From the NCBI GenBank assembly GCA_031292275.1, contig JARLHL010000005.1:1-63171 (forward strand): a DNA stretch of 63,171 nucleotides, written 5' to 3'. Under the pieces are notes generated by a model. That model saw only the letters and a list, made by a program, of their open reading frames with translations, made no database searches and had not been told where the DNA came from. The translations under genes and the position numbers were made by a program. Shown here piece after piece: positions 13,126 through 20,639 of this stretch (positions within the stretch are counted from its first letter, which is position 1; each line of letters opens with the position of its first letter). The DNA is from Desulfocapsaceae bacterium. Its GTDB lineage: Bacteria > Desulfobacterota > Desulfobulbia > Desulfobulbales > Desulfocapsaceae.

Positions 13126-14574
13126 TCATTCTCTCAGCCCGTCCACCTCGACTCCACGGGCATCGATGATCCGTATCTCAATGGGTTGACCGCCATCCAG
13201 GCGGTGCGTCGCACAGGACATTCAGGGGTCGTAGGCGCGGACCGCCATCTCTATCCGGTTCAATATCCCCTGGTCGTAGACGCCGCCCCGTATCAGAGAG
13301 GTTGCGGCCTGTTTGACGCTCATATGCATCGGCGCAATGTTATGGGTGGTACCGACGATCAGATTGGCCTTGGTGATACAGCCATTCCTGTCGGTGGTAT
13401 AATCATGGATCAGGGTTCCGCGCGGCGCTTCGACAATGCCGACGCCCCTGCCCGCCTTCGGGCCGGCCTCCGCCCGGATCCGGGTGTCGGTGACCTCTGG
13501 CCTCTGCAGCAGTTCCATGACACGCTCACAGACATAGATCAGTTCAATGAGACGGGCATAATGATAGAGTATGGTCTGCTGGGCCGGCCTGCCGAAGGCC
13601 ATGCGGAATTCCTCCAGGGCCGCCTGAGCCCTCGGGGTGGATATCCCGTCGCAGACATTGATCCTGGCCAGGGTATTGGCCCGATATATCCCTGCAGGTG
13701 CAGCGGGATCCAGAGAGAAGCCTTCCTGCCACGATTTGGCGTAGGGCATTTTCCCGAAGCTCCAGGCTTCCACATGCTCGCCGATATGATCGGTATAGCT
13801 GTCGCCCTCGAAATTCGTGCAGCTGCCGTCGGCCTTCATCAACCGCTGCCGGCCGTCATAGAGCCTGAGCGCCCCGCTGGTCCTGTCCACGGTCCCGAGG
13901 AAGCCGGTAGTAATGGTCCCCATTTCCTGAAAGACATCCATATATTTGGCAAAGACGGTATCTTTGGCAAAATCAAGGGCATAACAGGAGAAATCCAGCA
14001 GGGTCCCCGCATCCCGCAAGAGTTCCTGACGCTCCTGCTCCAGCATCGGCCGGGAAAAACCACCGACGACGCCGGCCACAGGATGGATGGCCCTGCCGGC
14101 AAAACGCTCCAGCATCATCTGGCCCAGCTGGCGCATCTTCACTATCCTGGCCGCCAAATCCGGCGCCGCCTTGACAATCCCCATCACATTGCGCACCGAA
14201 TAGTCGGCATCGGGGCCAAGGACGAAATCGGGGGCCGCAAGGAAGAAAAAATGGAGGATTTTATCGCTGATATGGGCGAGCAGCTGGCATATCTCCCTGA
14301 GGAGACTCCCTGCAGGCGGCGGCGTGACCCCAAAGGCCGCATCCACCGCCTTGCTTGCGGCCAGATGATGCATCCATGGGCAGATGCCGCAGATCCGGGT
14401 GACGATGCGGGGGATCTCCTCGGCAGGCCTGCCCTCGACAAACTTTTCAAAACCCCGCAGGGAGGTGATGTGCAGGAAGGTGTCCCGCACGTCACCTCGA
14501 TCATCGAGATGGATGGCAATCTTTGCATGCCCCTCGATGCGGGTGATCGGTGATATCTGGATAACCTTTCCCAT
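13126..14574 (-). CDS. mvhA: NiFe(Se) hydrogenase large subunit, MvhA-type, with in-frame TGA as selenocysteine
   Basis: Large subunit of a group 3 (Mvh/Frh-type) cytoplasmic hydrogenase that splits H2. TRIEGHAKI and RICGICPWMHH (Cys62, Cys65) give the N-terminal nickel ligands. The conventional frame stops at RAYDP-TGA (13222-13224). Every hydrogenase of this family needs a C-terminal DPCxxCxxH here, and reading on gives DP-U-MSCATH and then 25 more residues to a real TGA at 13126. I therefore read codon 451 as selenocysteine and Cys454 as its partner ligand. The extension after His457 is the peptide normally removed by a maturation protease, and one is encoded at the head of this operon. 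Total length is 482 residues, typical of the family. It starts 1 bp after the end of mvhG. Confidence 0.92.
13189..13221 (-). promoter_or_regulatory. SECIS-like hairpin downstream of the UGA codon
   Basis: Sixteen bases after the TGA, the mRNA reads ACCGCC-UGGAU-GGCGGU: a perfect 6-bp stem with a 5-nt apical loop whose second base is G. The loop begins 22 nt after the UGA. Bacterial SECIS elements bound by SelB are short hairpins just 3' of UGA with a G in the first two loop bases and roughly this spacing. The element lies inside the coding sequence, as expected in bacteria. Confidence 0.75.
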
Positions 14575-14575
14575 C

Positions 14576-15520
14576 CTAACCTCGTTCCCGGACCGGCCTG
14601 GTCCGGATCTGCCGCAGCAGACCATGCGCCCCGGAAAACCGCAACAGGGAGCGACGATCCACCACTGACTTGAAATCAATACCATTACTGGCCAGGGCGT
14701 TCATCATATCCAGCATCTGATTGCCATCCCTGCGGACCGGCCCGAAACATCCCCGGCAAGGGACACCGACCCTGATGCAACTGGGCGGCAGACCTGCCGC
14801 CGCACAGCCGGCAGCGGTAACCGGCCCCATACACATGAAACCCTGCTCCAGCAGACACCGCATCCGCTGGACCGGTTCTTCGGCGTTATAGTCCGCATTG
14901 ACCAGAAAACGGCGGACCTTTGAGACCGCCCCCTTCCCCTCCCGCAGGACCTGGCAGGTATCGCAGACGCTCTTGCCGGGCTGGACCGGATCCCGGCCCT
15001 GAGCCACGGCCGTCAGGACCTCGGCAATCAGGGCCGGGTTGGGCGGACAGCCGGGCAGGAAAAGATCGATTCTGACCTTCTCGTCACAGGCGTAGACGCG
15101 ATCCAGGGCCGCCGGGACCCCGACATCGGGCACGGAACAGGGATCAGTGCCCGATGTTGCAAAGACGCCCTTGATGCCCTCCCCTAAACCCTGCCCGTTC
15201 ATCAGGGCAGGGATCCCGCCATGGGTGGCACAGGTGCCGAGCGCAATCAGCAGCCGGCATTTTTCCCGCATCGCAAGCAGGACCTCCAGATGCTCGGTAT
15301 TGGCCACCCCGCCGGAGACAATGCCGATATCCGCCTCCGGAATCTCAATTTCGCTGCCCTCCCCGCACTGCCCCAGACATTTATGGTCCATGAGGATCGG
15401 TGCATGGACAATATCCAGATGCTCGCTGACAAGCGGGATCAGCGCCTCTCCGATATTCAGGATGGCGATCTCGCAGCCCGAGCAGGAGTTGAGCCATTCC
15501 AAGACAGCACGTACAGCCAT
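14576..15520 (-). CDS. mvhG: Hydrogenase small subunit, MvhG-type
   Basis: A 314-residue iron-sulfur subunit that carries electrons from the NiFe(Se) site. NSCSGCEIAIL near the N-terminus supplies proximal-cluster cysteines, and GTCATHGG and LPGCPPNP complete that site. Additional cysteines (CDTCQVL, CLLEQGFMCMG, CIRVGVPCRGCFGPV) are positioned for the medial and distal clusters. There is no Tat signal, so the enzyme is cytoplasmic, as in the Mvh/Hdr complex. The gene sits between mvhD and mvhA on the same strand with very short gaps, so co-translation is likely. Confidence 0.92.
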   Translation of the reverse strand: MAVRAVLEWLNSCSGCEIAILNIGEALIPLVSEHLDIVHAPILMDHKCLGQCGEGSEIEIPEADIGIVSGGVANTEHLEVLLAMREKCRLLIALGTCATHGGIPALMNGQGLGEGIKGVFATSGTDPCSVPDVGVPAALDRVYACDEKVRIDLFLPGCPPNPALIAEVLTAVAQGRDPVQPGKSVCDTCQVLREGKGAVSKVRRFLVNADYNAEEPVQRMRCLLEQGFMCMGPVTAAGCAAAGLPPSCIRVGVPCRGCFGPVRRDGNQMLDMMNALASNGIDFKSVVDRRSLLRFSGAHGLLRQIRTRPVRERG

Positions 15521-15538: not shown

Positions 15539-15958
15539 CTATTGTCCTGCAGGGTTCTGAAGGTCAACCGGCCCCATTTTCCTGATACGTTCGGTCATAT
15601 TCGTGAAGGCCCTGGCCAGTCTGTCGGGCTCGGAGGACGAGACCCAGGATATGGAATAGCGCTCATTTTCATAGCCCATATCATCCAGCAGTTCCGTAAT
15701 CATGTCGGAACGGGCCAGGGCCTTATGGTTGCCGTCCTGGTAATGGCATTCACCCAGATGGCAGCCGATCACCATGACGCCATCGGCACCATGCGACAGG
15801 GCATCCAGCACCAGCTCAGGGTGAACCATGCCCGAGCACATCACCCGGATGATCCTGACATTATGAGGATACTGTATCCTGGAGGTCCCGGCCAGATCAG
15901 CCGCGGCATACGAGCACCAGTTACAGCAGAAGGCGATGATTTTCGGTTCAAACCCCAT
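15539..15958 (-). CDS. mvhD: MvhD-type iron-sulfur protein
   Basis: A 139-residue protein of the methyl-viologen-reducing hydrogenase delta subunit family. It bridges the hydrogenase and HdrA. The family cysteine pattern is complete: FCCNWCSYAAAD near residue 10, VMCSGMV and IGCHLGECHY, coordinating a [2Fe-2S] centre. The start is supported by AAGGAG upstream. It is located between hdrA and mvhG, the classic order. All positions expected to be Cys are Cys here, in contrast to the large subunit. Confidence 0.93.
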   Translation of the reverse strand: MGFEPKIIAFCCNWCSYAAADLAGTSRIQYPHNVRIIRVMCSGMVHPELVLDALSHGADGVMVIGCHLGECHYQDGNHKALARSDMITELLDDMGYENERYSISWVSSSEPDRLARAFTNMTERIRKMGPVDLQNPAGQ

Positions 15959-16044: not shown

Positions 16045-19000
16045 TCAGGCCTGCAAGGCGGCCCGTACCTGGTCCCGCAACTGATCCAGAGTAAAGCCGG
16101 CAATAGAGACCCCTCTCTTCGGGCATGTACCCTGGCAGAGGCCGCAACCCTTGCACTGCGCCTCGTTGACAACGACGATCTTTACGGCCTGCGCCCCTTT
16201 TGCCGCCTTCTCCAACAGGGTAATGGCATGGTAGGGACAGACATCGATGCAGAGCCCGCAGCCGTCGCAGAAGGCAGGGTCGACTATGGCCTTTATGGCG
16301 TCCAGGGTCACCTCCTGCCTCGACAGGATCGTTGCCGCCCGCGCCGATGCCGCCAAGGCCTGGGCCACCGACTCGTCAACAGGCTTCGGATAATGGGCTA
16401 TGCCCGCAACGAACATGCCGTCAGTGGTGCAGTCAACGGGCCGCAGTTTCGCATGCGCCTCCTGGAAAAAGCCGTTCTGCTCCAAGGGGATCTTGTAGAG
16501 TCTGGCCAGATTTTCGGCATCCCGGTTGGCAACGATGGCAGCGGCCAGGATCACCATGTCGGCCTTGATCAGGAGCGGGCGGTGCAGGACATGATCCCAG
16601 AGCTCCACATCGATGGATTTTCCGTTGGATGTCACCCTGGGCTTCCCGTGCAGCTCGTAATTGATAAAGACCACGCCCATCTGCCTGGCCTTCTTGTACA
16701 GAGACTCCCGTTCGCCATATGTCCGCATGTCGCGATAGAGGATATAGACATTGCGGGAGGAATCCTCCCTCTTCAGCTCGATGGCCGACTGCACCGAATG
16801 GGTACAACAGACCTTGGAACAGTACATCCGCTCCTCATCGCGGGAGCCTACACACTGGATGAAGACGAACGATTTTCCCCGTTTGACATGGGTCTCCTTC
16901 AGATCATGCAGTTTGTCGAACTCAAGGGAAGTGACCACCCGCTGGATGGTCTTATAGCCGTATTCGTCGGGGGCATAGATCTTCCCGCCGGTGGCGACGA
17001 TGCCGATGCCGTGTTCGACGGTCCTGGACCTCCCGTTGGCGTTCTTCAGGGTGGTCTTGAAGTTGCCGACATGCCCTTCGACCCCGCTGACCACGGTCTC
17101 GCTGTGCAGAATTATATGTTCATTAACCAGGACCCTGTCGATGAGCTTGGCCACCTTCATCGGCACGTGCTCACCCGTATAAGTGTGCTTGAGGTTCAGG
17201 GAATTACCGCCAAGCCTGTTGGTTTTTTCAACAAGATGGACAGTAAACCCCTGTTCAGCAAGACTCAGGGCCGCCGTCAGACCGGCAAGCCCCCCGCCTA
17301 TGACCAGCCCCTTCTGGATTATGGGCACGGTAATGGGGGCAAGGGGGACCGACAAGGCTATCTTGGCCACAGCCATCCGGACCAGATCACAGGCCTTGGC
17401 TGTGGCGGCCTGGGGATTTCCCGGATGGACCCAGGAAGTATGATTTCGGATATTGGCGATCTCCACCATGTACTCATTAAGACCTGCCGCCCGCAGGGTC
17501 GCCCGGAAGAGATACTCATGGGTCCGGGGGGTACAGGCGGCTATGACAATACGATTCAGGCCCTTTTCCCGGATGGCGTTGATCAGGACCTGCTGGGTAT
17601 CCTCGGAACAGGCGAAAATATTCCGCTGGACATGGACCACACCGGCAAGGGTCGCGGCATACCTCTCCACCGCCACCACGTCAATAAGGCCCGCGATATT
17701 GGAACCGCAGTGGCAGATGAAGATCCCGGTTCTCGCGGGCTCCCCCCGGACCTCCCTCTCCTGCGGCCAGGACAATTTCCGGACCATCTCCCCCCTGGCA
17801 GGAGCCAGAAACCCGGCCACCGCCGCGGCAGCGGCCGACCCTTCAATGACCGACTGGGGAATATCCTTTGGCCCGGCGAAGGTCCCGCAGGTGAACACGC
17901 CTTCCTTGGAGGTGGCCACTGGGGAAAAATCCGAGGTGGCGGCAAAATTACTGGGAGTCATCTGGATGCCGACAAGGTCGGCCATGTCCAGCATGTTGGC
18001 GGGTGTACCGAGACCGACGGAGAGGACGACCATGTCATAGTACTCCTCGACCTGCCGCCCCTGCTCGTTGATATACCGCAGCCGCAGGTCGCCATTCTTT
18101 CCTTGGGGTTCGACACCATGGACCCGGCAGCGGACAAAGCGGACGCCGAGTTCATTTTTGGCCTTTTCGTAATACTGGTCAAAGCCCTTGCCGTGGGTGC
18201 GCATATCCATATAAAAAATGGCAGCGGCAAGGCCGGGAACATGCTCCTTGGCCACGGAGGCCCCTTTTATGGCCGCCATGCAGCAGATCGAAGAGCAGTA
18301 CCCTTTTCCGCATTTATTCTCGTCTCTGGAGCCGACACACTGGAGGAAGGCTATCCTCCTGACAGGCTTGCCGTCGGAGGGCCTGGCCAGGTTCCCCTCT
18401 GTGGGTCCGGTTGCCGACAGGTACCTCTCAAGCTGCAGCGAAGTGATAACATTTGGAAATTTACCAAACCCCCAGATTCCGGCGGGTTCAGGATCGAAGG
18501 GTTCAAATCCCGGCGCAAGCACCAGTGCACCGACAGAGAGGGTGTGCGTCTTTTCCGTATCGGCAAAATTGATGGCAGCGGCATCGCAGACCGTTTCACA
18601 GAGACCGCAGCTGCCGGGCCTCTTCAACTGCAGACAACTCTCGGCATCGATCTGATATTTCAGCGGGACAGCCTGGGGGTATTTGAGAAAGATGGCCTTG
18701 CGCCTGCCGGTCCCGGCATTGTAGGCGTCCGGCACATTCTTCGGGCATTTTTCCGCACAGAGGCCGCAGGAGATACATTTATCGAGATCTACAAATCGAG
18801 GCTGCTCCTTGACCGTGACCGTAAAATTCCCAGCCGTACCGCTTATGCCGGCAAGCTCCGAGAGGGTCATTATCCGGATATTCAGATTCCTGCCGCATTC
18901 CACCAGTTTCGGGGCGATGATGCACATCGCGCAGTCGTTGGTTGGAAAAGTCTTGTCAAGCTGAGCCATTGCCCCGCCTATGGCCCCAGATTTCTCGATC

Positions 19001-19107
19001 AGATACACGAAGTATCCGGCATCGGCCAGATCCAGCGCCGCCTGGATTCCGGTGACGCCTCCGCCAACCACCATCACCGAGCCGATCTTTCTACTTTCCA
19101 GTATCAC
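16045..19107 (-). CDS. hdrA: HdrA-like flavoprotein, double-length fusion
   Basis: A 1020-residue cytoplasmic flavin and iron-sulfur protein, central to flavin-based electron bifurcation. The N-terminal half has a dinucleotide fold (VMVVGGGVTGIQAAL), KCISCGLCAEKCPKN and SCGLCETVC. It then has FLQCVGSRDENKCGKGYCSSICC. The second half repeats the plan (GLVIGGGLAGLTAALSLAEQ, FIQCVGSRDEERMYCSKVCC) and ends with two ferredoxin motifs (CDGCGLCIDVCPYHA, CKGCGLCQGTCPKRG). So two HdrA-like units are fused in one chain, about 1.5 times the usual length. I prefer the GTG at 19107 over the one at 19113 because AAGGAGG then has proper spacing. It lies between the HdrCB-like gene and mvhD. Confidence 0.9.
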   Translation of the reverse strand: MILESRKIGSVMVVGGGVTGIQAALDLADAGYFVYLIEKSGAIGGAMAQLDKTFPTNDCAMCIIAPKLVECGRNLNIRIMTLSELAGISGTAGNFTVTVKEQPRFVDLDKCISCGLCAEKCPKNVPDAYNAGTGRRKAIFLKYPQAVPLKYQIDAESCLQLKRPGSCGLCETVCDAAAINFADTEKTHTLSVGALVLAPGFEPFDPEPAGIWGFGKFPNVITSLQLERYLSATGPTEGNLARPSDGKPVRRIAFLQCVGSRDENKCGKGYCSSICCMAAIKGASVAKEHVPGLAAAIFYMDMRTHGKGFDQYYEKAKNELGVRFVRCRVHGVEPQGKNGDLRLRYINEQGRQVEEYYDMVVLSVGLGTPANMLDMADLVGIQMTPSNFAATSDFSPVATSKEGVFTCGTFAGPKDIPQSVIEGSAAAAAVAGFLAPARGEMVRKLSWPQEREVRGEPARTGIFICHCGSNIAGLIDVVAVERYAATLAGVVHVQRNIFACSEDTQQVLINAIREKGLNRIVIAACTPRTHEYLFRATLRAAGLNEYMVEIANIRNHTSWVHPGNPQAATAKACDLVRMAVAKIALSVPLAPITVPIIQKGLVIGGGLAGLTAALSLAEQGFTVHLVEKTNRLGGNSLNLKHTYTGEHVPMKVAKLIDRVLVNEHIILHSETVVSGVEGHVGNFKTTLKNANGRSRTVEHGIGIVATGGKIYAPDEYGYKTIQRVVTSLEFDKLHDLKETHVKRGKSFVFIQCVGSRDEERMYCSKVCCTHSVQSAIELKREDSSRNVYILYRDMRTYGERESLYKKARQMGVVFINYELHGKPRVTSNGKSIDVELWDHVLHRPLLIKADMVILAAAIVANRDAENLARLYKIPLEQNGFFQEAHAKLRPVDCTTDGMFVAGIAHYPKPVDESVAQALAASARAATILSRQEVTLDAIKAIVDPAFCDGCGLCIDVCPYHAITLLEKAAKGAQAVKIVVVNEAQCKGCGLCQGTCPKRGVSIAGFTLDQLRDQVRAALQA

Positions 19108-19172
19108 AGGCACCCCTCCTTGTTCTCATATCACGGTCTCCGGCCACCGTCCCCCTGCTCCCGCCTGCAGCG

Positions 19173-20639
19173 TTATTCCAGACTTCTCCGCCCCGGCAGG
19201 ATCAGGGAATCAGCCACCAGCTCCCACATATATTTGACCTCAATGCCGAGGTTATACTCCTGATTCAAGGATTTCTTAAACTGATCCCTGCAGTTATGAC
19301 AGGAGGCAATAACCAGCTTCGCCTCACTCTCAGACACCTGCCTGGCCTTCATCCGCCCGTAATAGACACGTTCATCGGCAAAAGGCATAGCCCAGGCCCC
19401 GCTCCCGGCACCGCAGCAGTAGTTAGAGCCGCGATTGGGCTCCATCTCCACCAGATCCGGGCAGCAGGCCCGGGTGATCTCCCGGCCTTCTTCATAGTAG
19501 GCCTGCCCGAATGCACGCATTGACTTCCGCCCGTAATTGCAGGAATCGTGAAAGACGGTCCTTTTGGTGTGGATTGTATTATCCACCCTGATCCTGCCGG
19601 TATGGAGGTATTCCAGCAGAAGGTCGAAAACGGTGCATATCTTAAATTCCTTCAAGGCCTCGGGATACCAGCGGTTCAGGCAGAAGCGGGTCGCGTAGTA
19701 GGCATGACCGCATTCAGGCAGCAGCAGGGTCTCGCAATTCAGCCGCCGCATATTGTCGACGATCCTCCCAACCACGGCGCGCATGGCCTCATCGTCCCCC
19801 GAAAACAGCCCCCAGTTCACCCCCTCCCAATTCTCGGAGGTCAACGTCCAGGACTCGCCGGCGGCATAAAAGATCTTCCACCACCACTTCAGGTCATCAG
19901 GCTCGGCAAAAGGCTCCCGGGAATTCACCGTCACCATGAGCCTGGCGCCATGGATGTCCACCGGCGTCACGAAGCCCGGACAGCAGCCTTCCGCCAGCTC
20001 ATCACCCAGCTCTTCCATAAGGTGGAGGAAATCCTCCTTGGGGATACCGATGTTGTTGCCCCGCTCAAGACAGGTCATCACCCCACGGTGGATGGGCCCC
20101 GGCACCTTGTCCCTGTCCCGCCTGGAGCGAAGCCGCCGCATCAGATTGACGATCTGGATATTGGCAGGGCACACATCCTCGCACTTGGCACACATGGTAC
20201 ATTTCCAGGCCCAGTCCGAGTCGATCAGATCGTCCTCCAGGCCGAGAATGGCCATCCTGACAATCTTCCTCGGATCAAGCCCGTCAACCCCTGATATCGG
20301 ACAGGCGCTGGCACAGGTACCACAGGTCAGGCACTCATCGGCCCACTGGCTGTCATCATACAGAGTCTTGACCTTTTTGCCCAATTCCAGCACAGGCACG
20401 ATCTTTTTCTCGGTCTCGAGCGTGGATACCGTCCGCAGGTCCACGTTGCTGTCCGGCCTGATCAGGGGTTCGCGACCGAACTTCTCACAGAGCATCTGGT
20501 AATCCTCAAACTTCATCAGATATTTCCGTCCCGGTCCCTCCTGGGCCACCAGGGTACCGGCGTTGATCCAATTTCTGATGGTATTCCTGTGAACCCCAAA
20601 CTCTTCCGCTATTTCACTGACCTTGAATTCATACATCAT
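19173..20639 (-). CDS. HdrCB/HdrD-like iron-sulfur protein with N-terminal HTH
   Basis: A 488-residue protein. Residues 1-50 (FKVSEIAEEFGVHRNTIRNW, then GRKYLMKFEDY) form a MerR/excisionase-type helix-turn-helix. Residues about 103-115 (CLTCGTCASACP) and 147-159 (CTMCAKCEDVCP) are two [4Fe-4S] sites like HdrC. The rest is HdrB-like: one degenerate CCG domain (LLPECGHAYY) and one complete (DSCNYGR, NYCCGAGSG, ASCHNCRDQF) for a noncubane cluster. It would be the disulfide-reducing partner of the HdrA-MvhADG module. Its ATG overlaps the stop of the upstream protease gene (ATGA). The DNA-binding-type domain on a redox enzyme is unusual. Confidence 0.85.
   Translation of the reverse strand: MMYEFKVSEIAEEFGVHRNTIRNWINAGTLVAQEGPGRKYLMKFEDYQMLCEKFGREPLIRPDSNVDLRTVSTLETEKKIVPVLELGKKVKTLYDDSQWADECLTCGTCASACPISGVDGLDPRKIVRMAILGLEDDLIDSDWAWKCTMCAKCEDVCPANIQIVNLMRRLRSRRDRDKVPGPIHRGVMTCLERGNNIGIPKEDFLHLMEELGDELAEGCCPGFVTPVDIHGARLMVTVNSREPFAEPDDLKWWWKIFYAAGESWTLTSENWEGVNWGLFSGDDEAMRAVVGRIVDNMRRLNCETLLLPECGHAYYATRFCLNRWYPEALKEFKICTVFDLLLEYLHTGRIRVDNTIHTKRTVFHDSCNYGRKSMRAFGQAYYEEGREITRACCPDLVEMEPNRGSNYCCGAGSGAWAMPFADERVYYGRMKARQVSESEAKLVIASCHNCRDQFKKSLNQEYNLGIEVKYMWELVADSLILPGRRSLE

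Follow-up and report, generated by a model that had tools for sequence, protein, structure and literature searches.

A predicted selenocysteine at the nickel site of an Mvh/Vhu-type hydrogenase in a Desulfocapsaceae genome, with a candidate SECIS hairpin in the propeptide

A hydrogenase gene cluster with an in-frame TGA

The window (the whole stretch of DNA analysed, 63,171 nucleotides of a Desulfocapsaceae contig) encodes a hydrogenase large and small subunit together with mvhD and hdrA, the gene set of an Mvh/Vhu-type enzyme. The cluster, which is presumably co-transcribed, has the following features:

13126..14574, minus strand: mvhA/vhuA-like [NiFeSe] hydrogenase large subunit, 482 residues with a predicted selenocysteine (Sec) at 451 (VhuA/VhuU, PF00374 and fold matches)
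13222..13224, minus strand: TGA codon 451, predicted Sec at the first Cys position of motif L2 (DPUxxCxxH); TGA in 110/110 loci
13189..13205, minus strand: candidate bacterial SECIS hairpin, 6-bp stem and UGGAU loop
13129..13203, minus strand: C-terminal maturation propeptide, residues 458-482, holding 15/17 hairpin bases; predicted cleavage after H457
13126..13128, minus strand: terminating TGA, followed by no 6-bp hairpin; the only one there has 4 bp and sits at the outer end of the allowed spacing
14576..15520, minus strand: mvhG/vhuG-like hydrogenase small subunit (NCBIfam/Pfam profiles)
15539..15958, minus strand: mvhD/FlpD, with Cys66 at 15763-15761; TGA in 65/81 readable loci
16045..19113, minus strand: double HdrA, with Cys64 at 18924-18922; TGA in 47/53 readable loci
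19173..20639, minus strand: GlpC/HdrCB-like Fe-S protein with an N-terminal HTH and Cys310 at 19712-19710; TGA in 5/5 relatives read

The large-subunit frame runs from an ATG at 14574 to the TGA at 13224-13222, codon 451, immediately after the residues DP. Past this triplet it continues as MSCATHRLDGGQPIEIRIIDARGVEVDGLRE to 13128-13126, that is for 31 codons before a second TGA. A preliminary description of this DNA had placed the halt of the frame exactly at the cysteine of DPCxxCxxH, and both its coordinates and its motif are correct. The read-through product it gave, MSCATH plus 25 residues, also stands, although what it called a real stop is itself a TGA. Among the 110 homologous loci introduced below, the second stop is TGA in 48, TAA in 31 and TAG in 30, with one locus unfinished.

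Both motifs of [NiFe] large subunits, L1 (RxCGxC) and L2 (DPxxxCxxH), are present, and the Sec codon at the first L2 cysteine position makes the enzyme [NiFeSe] by codon. The protein is matched by Pfam PF00374 (nickel hydrogenase). Its best NCBIfam profile is VhuA (NF041785, 467 bits against a curated cut-off of 800), and VhuU (NF041786) matches its C-terminal end with 38 bits, under the cut-off of 70. Since the NF041785 cut-off is not reached, the subunit is VhuA-like and not a VhuA equivalog. The closest solved chains by sequence are 9sfi chain g (426 bits over 418 residues), 9sw2_F (378), 7t2r_D (373) and 5odc_F (364). The predicted model has a mean pLDDT of 86, with segment 458-463 below 50, and its best fold match is 5odc_F, from a methanogen Hdr/[NiFe]-hydrogenase complex (TM 0.88). 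C62, C65, position 451, C454 and H457 are invariant in a 29-row alignment in which TGA was written as C and three rows are true Cys homologues.

Conservation of codon 451 and the selenocysteine machinery

A search of the phylum covered 395 genomes, 126 of which gave a match at 1e-60. The best 45 matches (60-100% identity, 43 genomes) contain exactly one TGA each; among the matches listed at 60%, that of G188 has TAG and the partial one of G308 has Cys. Codon 451 was then read in 110 loci of at least 62% identity, made up of 30 from the phylum search (the window's own included) and 80 named loci. Some genomes occur in both sets and proteins repeat: with 17 further tree rows, 115 of 127 are different. 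The codon is TGA in all 110 loci and Cys in none, and SCATH follows it in every one. L148, at 61% identity, likewise has TGA. The more distant homologues carry TGC or TGT in 13 cases, TGA in L144 (about 42% identity), TAA in L133 and TAG in L132. A search of plasmids returned no homologue of at least 60% identity, only ones of lower identity.

A quick tree (LG+G4 without a mixture model), on which counts of changes carry no direction, gives two changes at this site over its whole extent and none within the 110 close loci. The Cys-bearing L135 falls at the root of the Sec group without a resolved position, the partial L147 was left out of the tree, and L132, L133 and L134 enter the count without a Sec or Cys state. 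These last three (genomes G188, G136 and G038) terminate at codon 451 or soon afterwards and have no L2, and L134 has also lost Cys65; L132 and L133 belong to a neighbouring lineage. L144 (G181) reads DP-TGA-ISCATH plus a short tail and is a divergent candidate for Sec at L2; its genome has tRNA-Sec and selA, and on the tree its branch is 2.32 long, a placement that is not to be trusted.

The genome from which the window comes, a draft assembly of 114 contigs rated 99.98% complete, encodes the full set expected of a bacterium that makes selenoproteins. More specifically, selA (630 bits) and selB (370 bits) exceed their curated cut-offs, tRNA-Sec (selC) reaches 73.3 bits, the gathering score being 47, and selD is present in two copies over the cut-off (G000, C64:33414-34343 and C2:38365-39288). 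One SelD reads LARTCG-TGA-AAKIGP, with TGA at UxxK, a site listed for selenoprotein SelD in the portions of two reviews available to us (PMC9312934, PMC13188914); the other has Cys (GGCSAK). The objection foreseen at the outset, a genome lacking selA, selB, selC and selD, thus falls away. As a discriminator of TGA-bearing genomes selA was rejected: among the 80 of the 126 matching genomes covered by the test, it exceeds the cut-off in 43/44 with the L2 TGA (all except G392) and also in 31/36 of the others.

Because the window is one contig of a 114-contig draft, the TGA might be a sequencing or assembly error for TGC or TGT. The same triplet is found in separate assemblies, among them L062 and L081, whose records are titled complete, and the isolates Desulfopila aestuarii (L057) and Desulfofustis glycolicus (L087). 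Its occurrence in 110 loci from many assemblies speaks against a local error, which we regard as improbable in the extreme.

A covarying hairpin in the disposable tail

Downstream of codon 451 the transcript can form the hairpin ACCGCC-UGGAU-GGCGGU, in which G is the second loop base and the distance from UGA to loop is 22 nt. The 6-bp stem had been described correctly, and we place the hairpin at 13205-13189. According to the accessible part of PMC13188914, bacterial SECIS elements have a loop of 3-9 nt with G in the first two positions, a stem of 4-16 bp, a spacing of 16-37 nt and an MFE of at most -7.5. The window hairpin, at -10.5 kcal/mol taken alone, lies within these limits, a comparison with a bacterial SECIS model that had been suggested earlier, and so do all 110 loci for loop, spacing, stem and energy when the energy is computed on 45 nt. 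By itself the 17-nt hairpin ranges from -7.3 to -10.5 kcal/mol over the loci, the weakest missing the -7.5 limit; in 100/110 it is part of the best fold of the 45 nt. Neither a SECIS nor any other Rfam model matches the hairpin region.

Considered alone the hairpin is weak evidence, since 79 of the 2302 TGA triplets on both strands of the window have a hairpin of at least 6 bp in the allowed place. Homology (TGA 451 in 110/110 loci) and two compensated base pairs raise it above chance. The 110 loci contain 93 distinct 45-nt tails, over which 519/558 stem cells are paired, compared with a maximum of 508 in shuffles and 93 to 383 for slid versions of the stem. Pair 22-32 is GC in 87 tails and AT in 6, and pair 20-34 is CG in 80, TA in 12 and TG in one, neither with a mismatch; on the tree these pairs changed at least three and at least five times, respectively. 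The outermost pair, 19-35, is unpaired in 39/93 tails. The 13 Cys homologues form one to four of the six stem pairs.

These substitutions can be read in the protein. The switch at pair 22-32 replaces Arg458 (CGY) by His (CAC) jointly with a GGC to GGT change on the other side of the stem. Where His457 is CAC, residue 462 is Gly in 80/80 tails; where it is CAT (13 tails), residue 462 is Asp in 11, Glu in one and Gly in one, the last with a U-G pair. The base changes are compensatory, and therefore the changes in propeptide sequence follow the RNA. The nearest Cys homologues that have a propeptide (L137, L138, L139 and L147) carry Ala, Asn or Lys at 458.

NiFe hydrogenase large subunits are cleaved after the L2 histidine, here H457, during maturation. 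Propeptide codons contain 15 of the 17 hairpin bases. The demands of the hairpin should therefore constrain the tail that is cut off more than the mature enzyme, and the discarded tail would itself carry the recoding signal. The covariation shows that such a signal can reside in a disposable propeptide. L135, L136, L143 and L145 are Cys-type large subunits that stop right at ATH, STH or ATM, with no propeptide.

Could UGA 451 simply terminate, leaving a truncated subunit without L2, the product of a decaying gene or a non-catalytic protein? Some relatives do end here, L132 with TAG and L133 with TAA at codon 451 and L134 shortly after. A dead tail would neither keep its codons nor covary, and here SCATH is kept in 110/110 loci, 25 to 37 residues follow before the next stop or contig end, and the hairpin covaries. 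Termination is accordingly very improbable. Reading of the codon by near-cognate suppression with another amino acid, a possibility raised by the fact that codon analysis cannot name the inserted residue, is set against the complete set of Sec genes, a bacterial SECIS that covaries, and TGC or TGT at the same position in distant homologues; we consider it very unlikely as well.

The original proposal that the large subunit is a selenoprotein is thus supported by the machinery, by the TGA in 110/110 loci and by the covarying SECIS candidate, and we predict, with near certainty, that TGA 451 encodes a selenocysteine of the metal site. SelB with Sec-tRNA would bind the mRNA hairpin at 13205-13189, UGA 451 would be decoded as selenocysteine, and Sec451 would become the terminal nickel ligand of L2. 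The next TGA, lacking a 6-bp hairpin downstream, would end translation, and the propeptide beyond His457 would be removed on nickel insertion. The mature product would be a cytoplasmic Mvh/Vhu-type [NiFeSe] hydrogenase passing electrons from H2 via MvhD to the double-HdrA/HdrCB-like complex; electron bifurcation and the physiological electron acceptor are predictions of the same kind. Standard gene calling would end this catalytic subunit ahead of its L2 ligands, and the hydrogen metabolism of bacteria of this kind is misread as a result.

The window contains 145 TGA-flanked open stretches, and six of these read-through frames were scanned against Pfam, with no second selenoprotein seen among them. 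Five have no match; the sixth encodes a DNA ligase and was rejected as a selenoprotein, as every domain precedes its TGA.

Selenocysteine at partner sites, in known systems and at L1

Only one of the four Sec/Cys sites of the window operon, that of the large subunit, has TGA; MvhD 66, HdrA 64 and GlpC 310 are all TGC. Among the 110 loci, the MvhD site is readable in 81 (65 TGA, 16 Cys) and the HdrA site in 53 (47 TGA, 6 Cys), the latter count leaving out 5 of 58 rows (ACC, CCC, CCT) whose alignment apparently fell on the wrong half of the duplicated HdrA. Where both partners are readable (n=53), 42 loci have Sec in both, 6 have Cys in both and 5 have Sec in HdrA only. The GlpC site is TGA in three loci and in L205 (G357) and L206 (G339), from genomes of the same family. 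L074 and L102, taken as coming from these same two genomes because their contigs match in length, have TGA at the MvhD and HdrA sites, and by codon all four operon sites are predicted to be Sec in the two.

Counted within the Sec group, the tree gives at least seven changes at the MvhD site and two at the HdrA site. Cys is shared by MvhD and HdrA throughout one supported clade, which consists of the window, L052, L086 and L110. Since most surrounding clades have Sec, loss of Sec at the partner sites would be the simpler reading. The unequal use of Cys, in 0/110 loci at the nickel ligand, 16/81 at MvhD and 6/53 at HdrA, makes the indispensability of selenium testable site by site.

Two side observations concern the same operon. 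The protein at 19173-20639 joins an excisionase-like HTH to an HdrC/HdrB-like Fe-S protein, a fusion kept in L205 and L206. The mvhG genes of L125 and L036 have an in-frame TGA at residue 157; this is a Gly position (GGC in L119), so the triplet was rejected as Sec and is probably a nonsense change.

Operons of this type have been described before. In the part of Zhang 2006 accessible to us, a Sec-containing FrhA is reported in a glpC-hdrA-frhD-frhG-frhA operon of Syntrophobacter fumaroxidans and Desulfotalea psychrophila, with FrhD, HdrA and GlpC likewise selenoproteins, and transfer between archaea and Deltaproteobacteria is argued for (PMC1794560). The mention of Sec-containing large subunits in deltaproteobacteria in the preliminary description is borne out by these two genera (PMC1794560). 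As far as that text describes them, the window resembles them in gene set and order, in a doubled hdrA and in a Sec codon in the alpha subunit, but differs in having Cys at the GlpC, HdrA and MvhD (FrhD) sites; the likeness is one of description, the sequences not having been aligned (PMC1794560). The window gene is therefore a further member of the bacterial type reported from sulfate reducers in 2006, not a new kind, and the word 'hidden' holds for automatic gene calls but not for the field, where, on the accessible text, the type has been known since then (PMC1794560). In Desulfobacterium autotrophicum HRM2, MvhA2DG is given as a cytoplasmic hydrogenase that contains selenocysteine and is encoded in a cluster with hdrA1; the MvhD subunits and HdrA1 are named selenoproteins and MvhA2 is not outright so named in the portion available, and the main text does not contain the term SECIS (PMC2702500).

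Methanococcal Vhu (VhuA/VhuU), on partial sources, has Sec at the same UxxC site as the window protein. Its Sec-containing part is a separate small subunit and its SECIS is archaeal, whereas the window protein is one polypeptide with an in-frame candidate bacterial SECIS. In the periplasmic [NiFeSe] hydrogenase HysA of Desulfovibrio, Sec is the terminal nickel ligand of L2; HysA belongs to another hydrogenase group and matches with 131 bits, compared with 426 for the best chain.

Four homologues, L150, L152, L156 and L168, have TGA at residue 65, the second L1 Cys (CGV-U), and Cys at both L2 positions. L141/L150 (G065), L142/L152 (G028) and L140/L168 (G192, its TGA taken from translations) share 40-45% identity with the window protein, and L156 (G405) shares 82% with L150. 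All four genomes have selB over the cut-off, and tRNA-Sec is present in the three tested (G065, G028 and G192). Past the L1 TGA the frame stays open for more than 420 codons under strong constraint: for the pair L150/L152 dN is 0.023 and dS 0.65, and for L150/L156 dN is 0.13 and dS 1.6, the latter close to saturation. G068, considered as a further case, was rejected, its L1 codon being TGC.

A 5-bp hairpin with loop CGUUGA or CGGGUA lies at the right spacing after the L1 TGA, with all five pairs formed in 4/4 rows; the 45-nt stretch of L168 has a different structure as its best fold. As proof of Sec at L1 this hairpin was downgraded: 6 of 46 distinct Cys homologues form all pairs too, because the coding sequence for MASxKA tends to make a hairpin.

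In [NiFe] hydrogenase structures the second L1 Cys forms a bridge between nickel and iron. Selenocysteine there, if confirmed, would be new coordination chemistry for a hydrogenase as far as the literature was searched, and this by-product may matter more than the L2 case. For the hydrogenase family, the tables of two selenoprotein reviews, in the parts available, give only UxxC (PMC9312934, PMC13188914), and a literature search that covered mainly titles and, thinly, subscription journals found no report of Sec at L1 in hydrogenases. We consider it somewhat probable that Mvh-type hydrogenases use Sec at two metal-ligand sites, L2 and the second Cys of L1, and that the window operon represents a late stage in the loss of selenium, with Sec left at the nickel ligand alone. 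What makes the locus interesting is the clean covariation of the SECIS within a tail that is discarded, the one Sec of four, and this lead to a second Sec position.

G065 and G028, both single-contig genomes, each hold a near-identical Cys copy of the L1-TGA gene (L158 and L159). The copies of G065, with a third partial copy (L161), lie near contig ends, where an assembly effect is possible; those of G028 lie inside the contig. On partial sources, these Sec/Cys copy pairs resemble the Vhu/Vhc pair of Methanococcus voltae.
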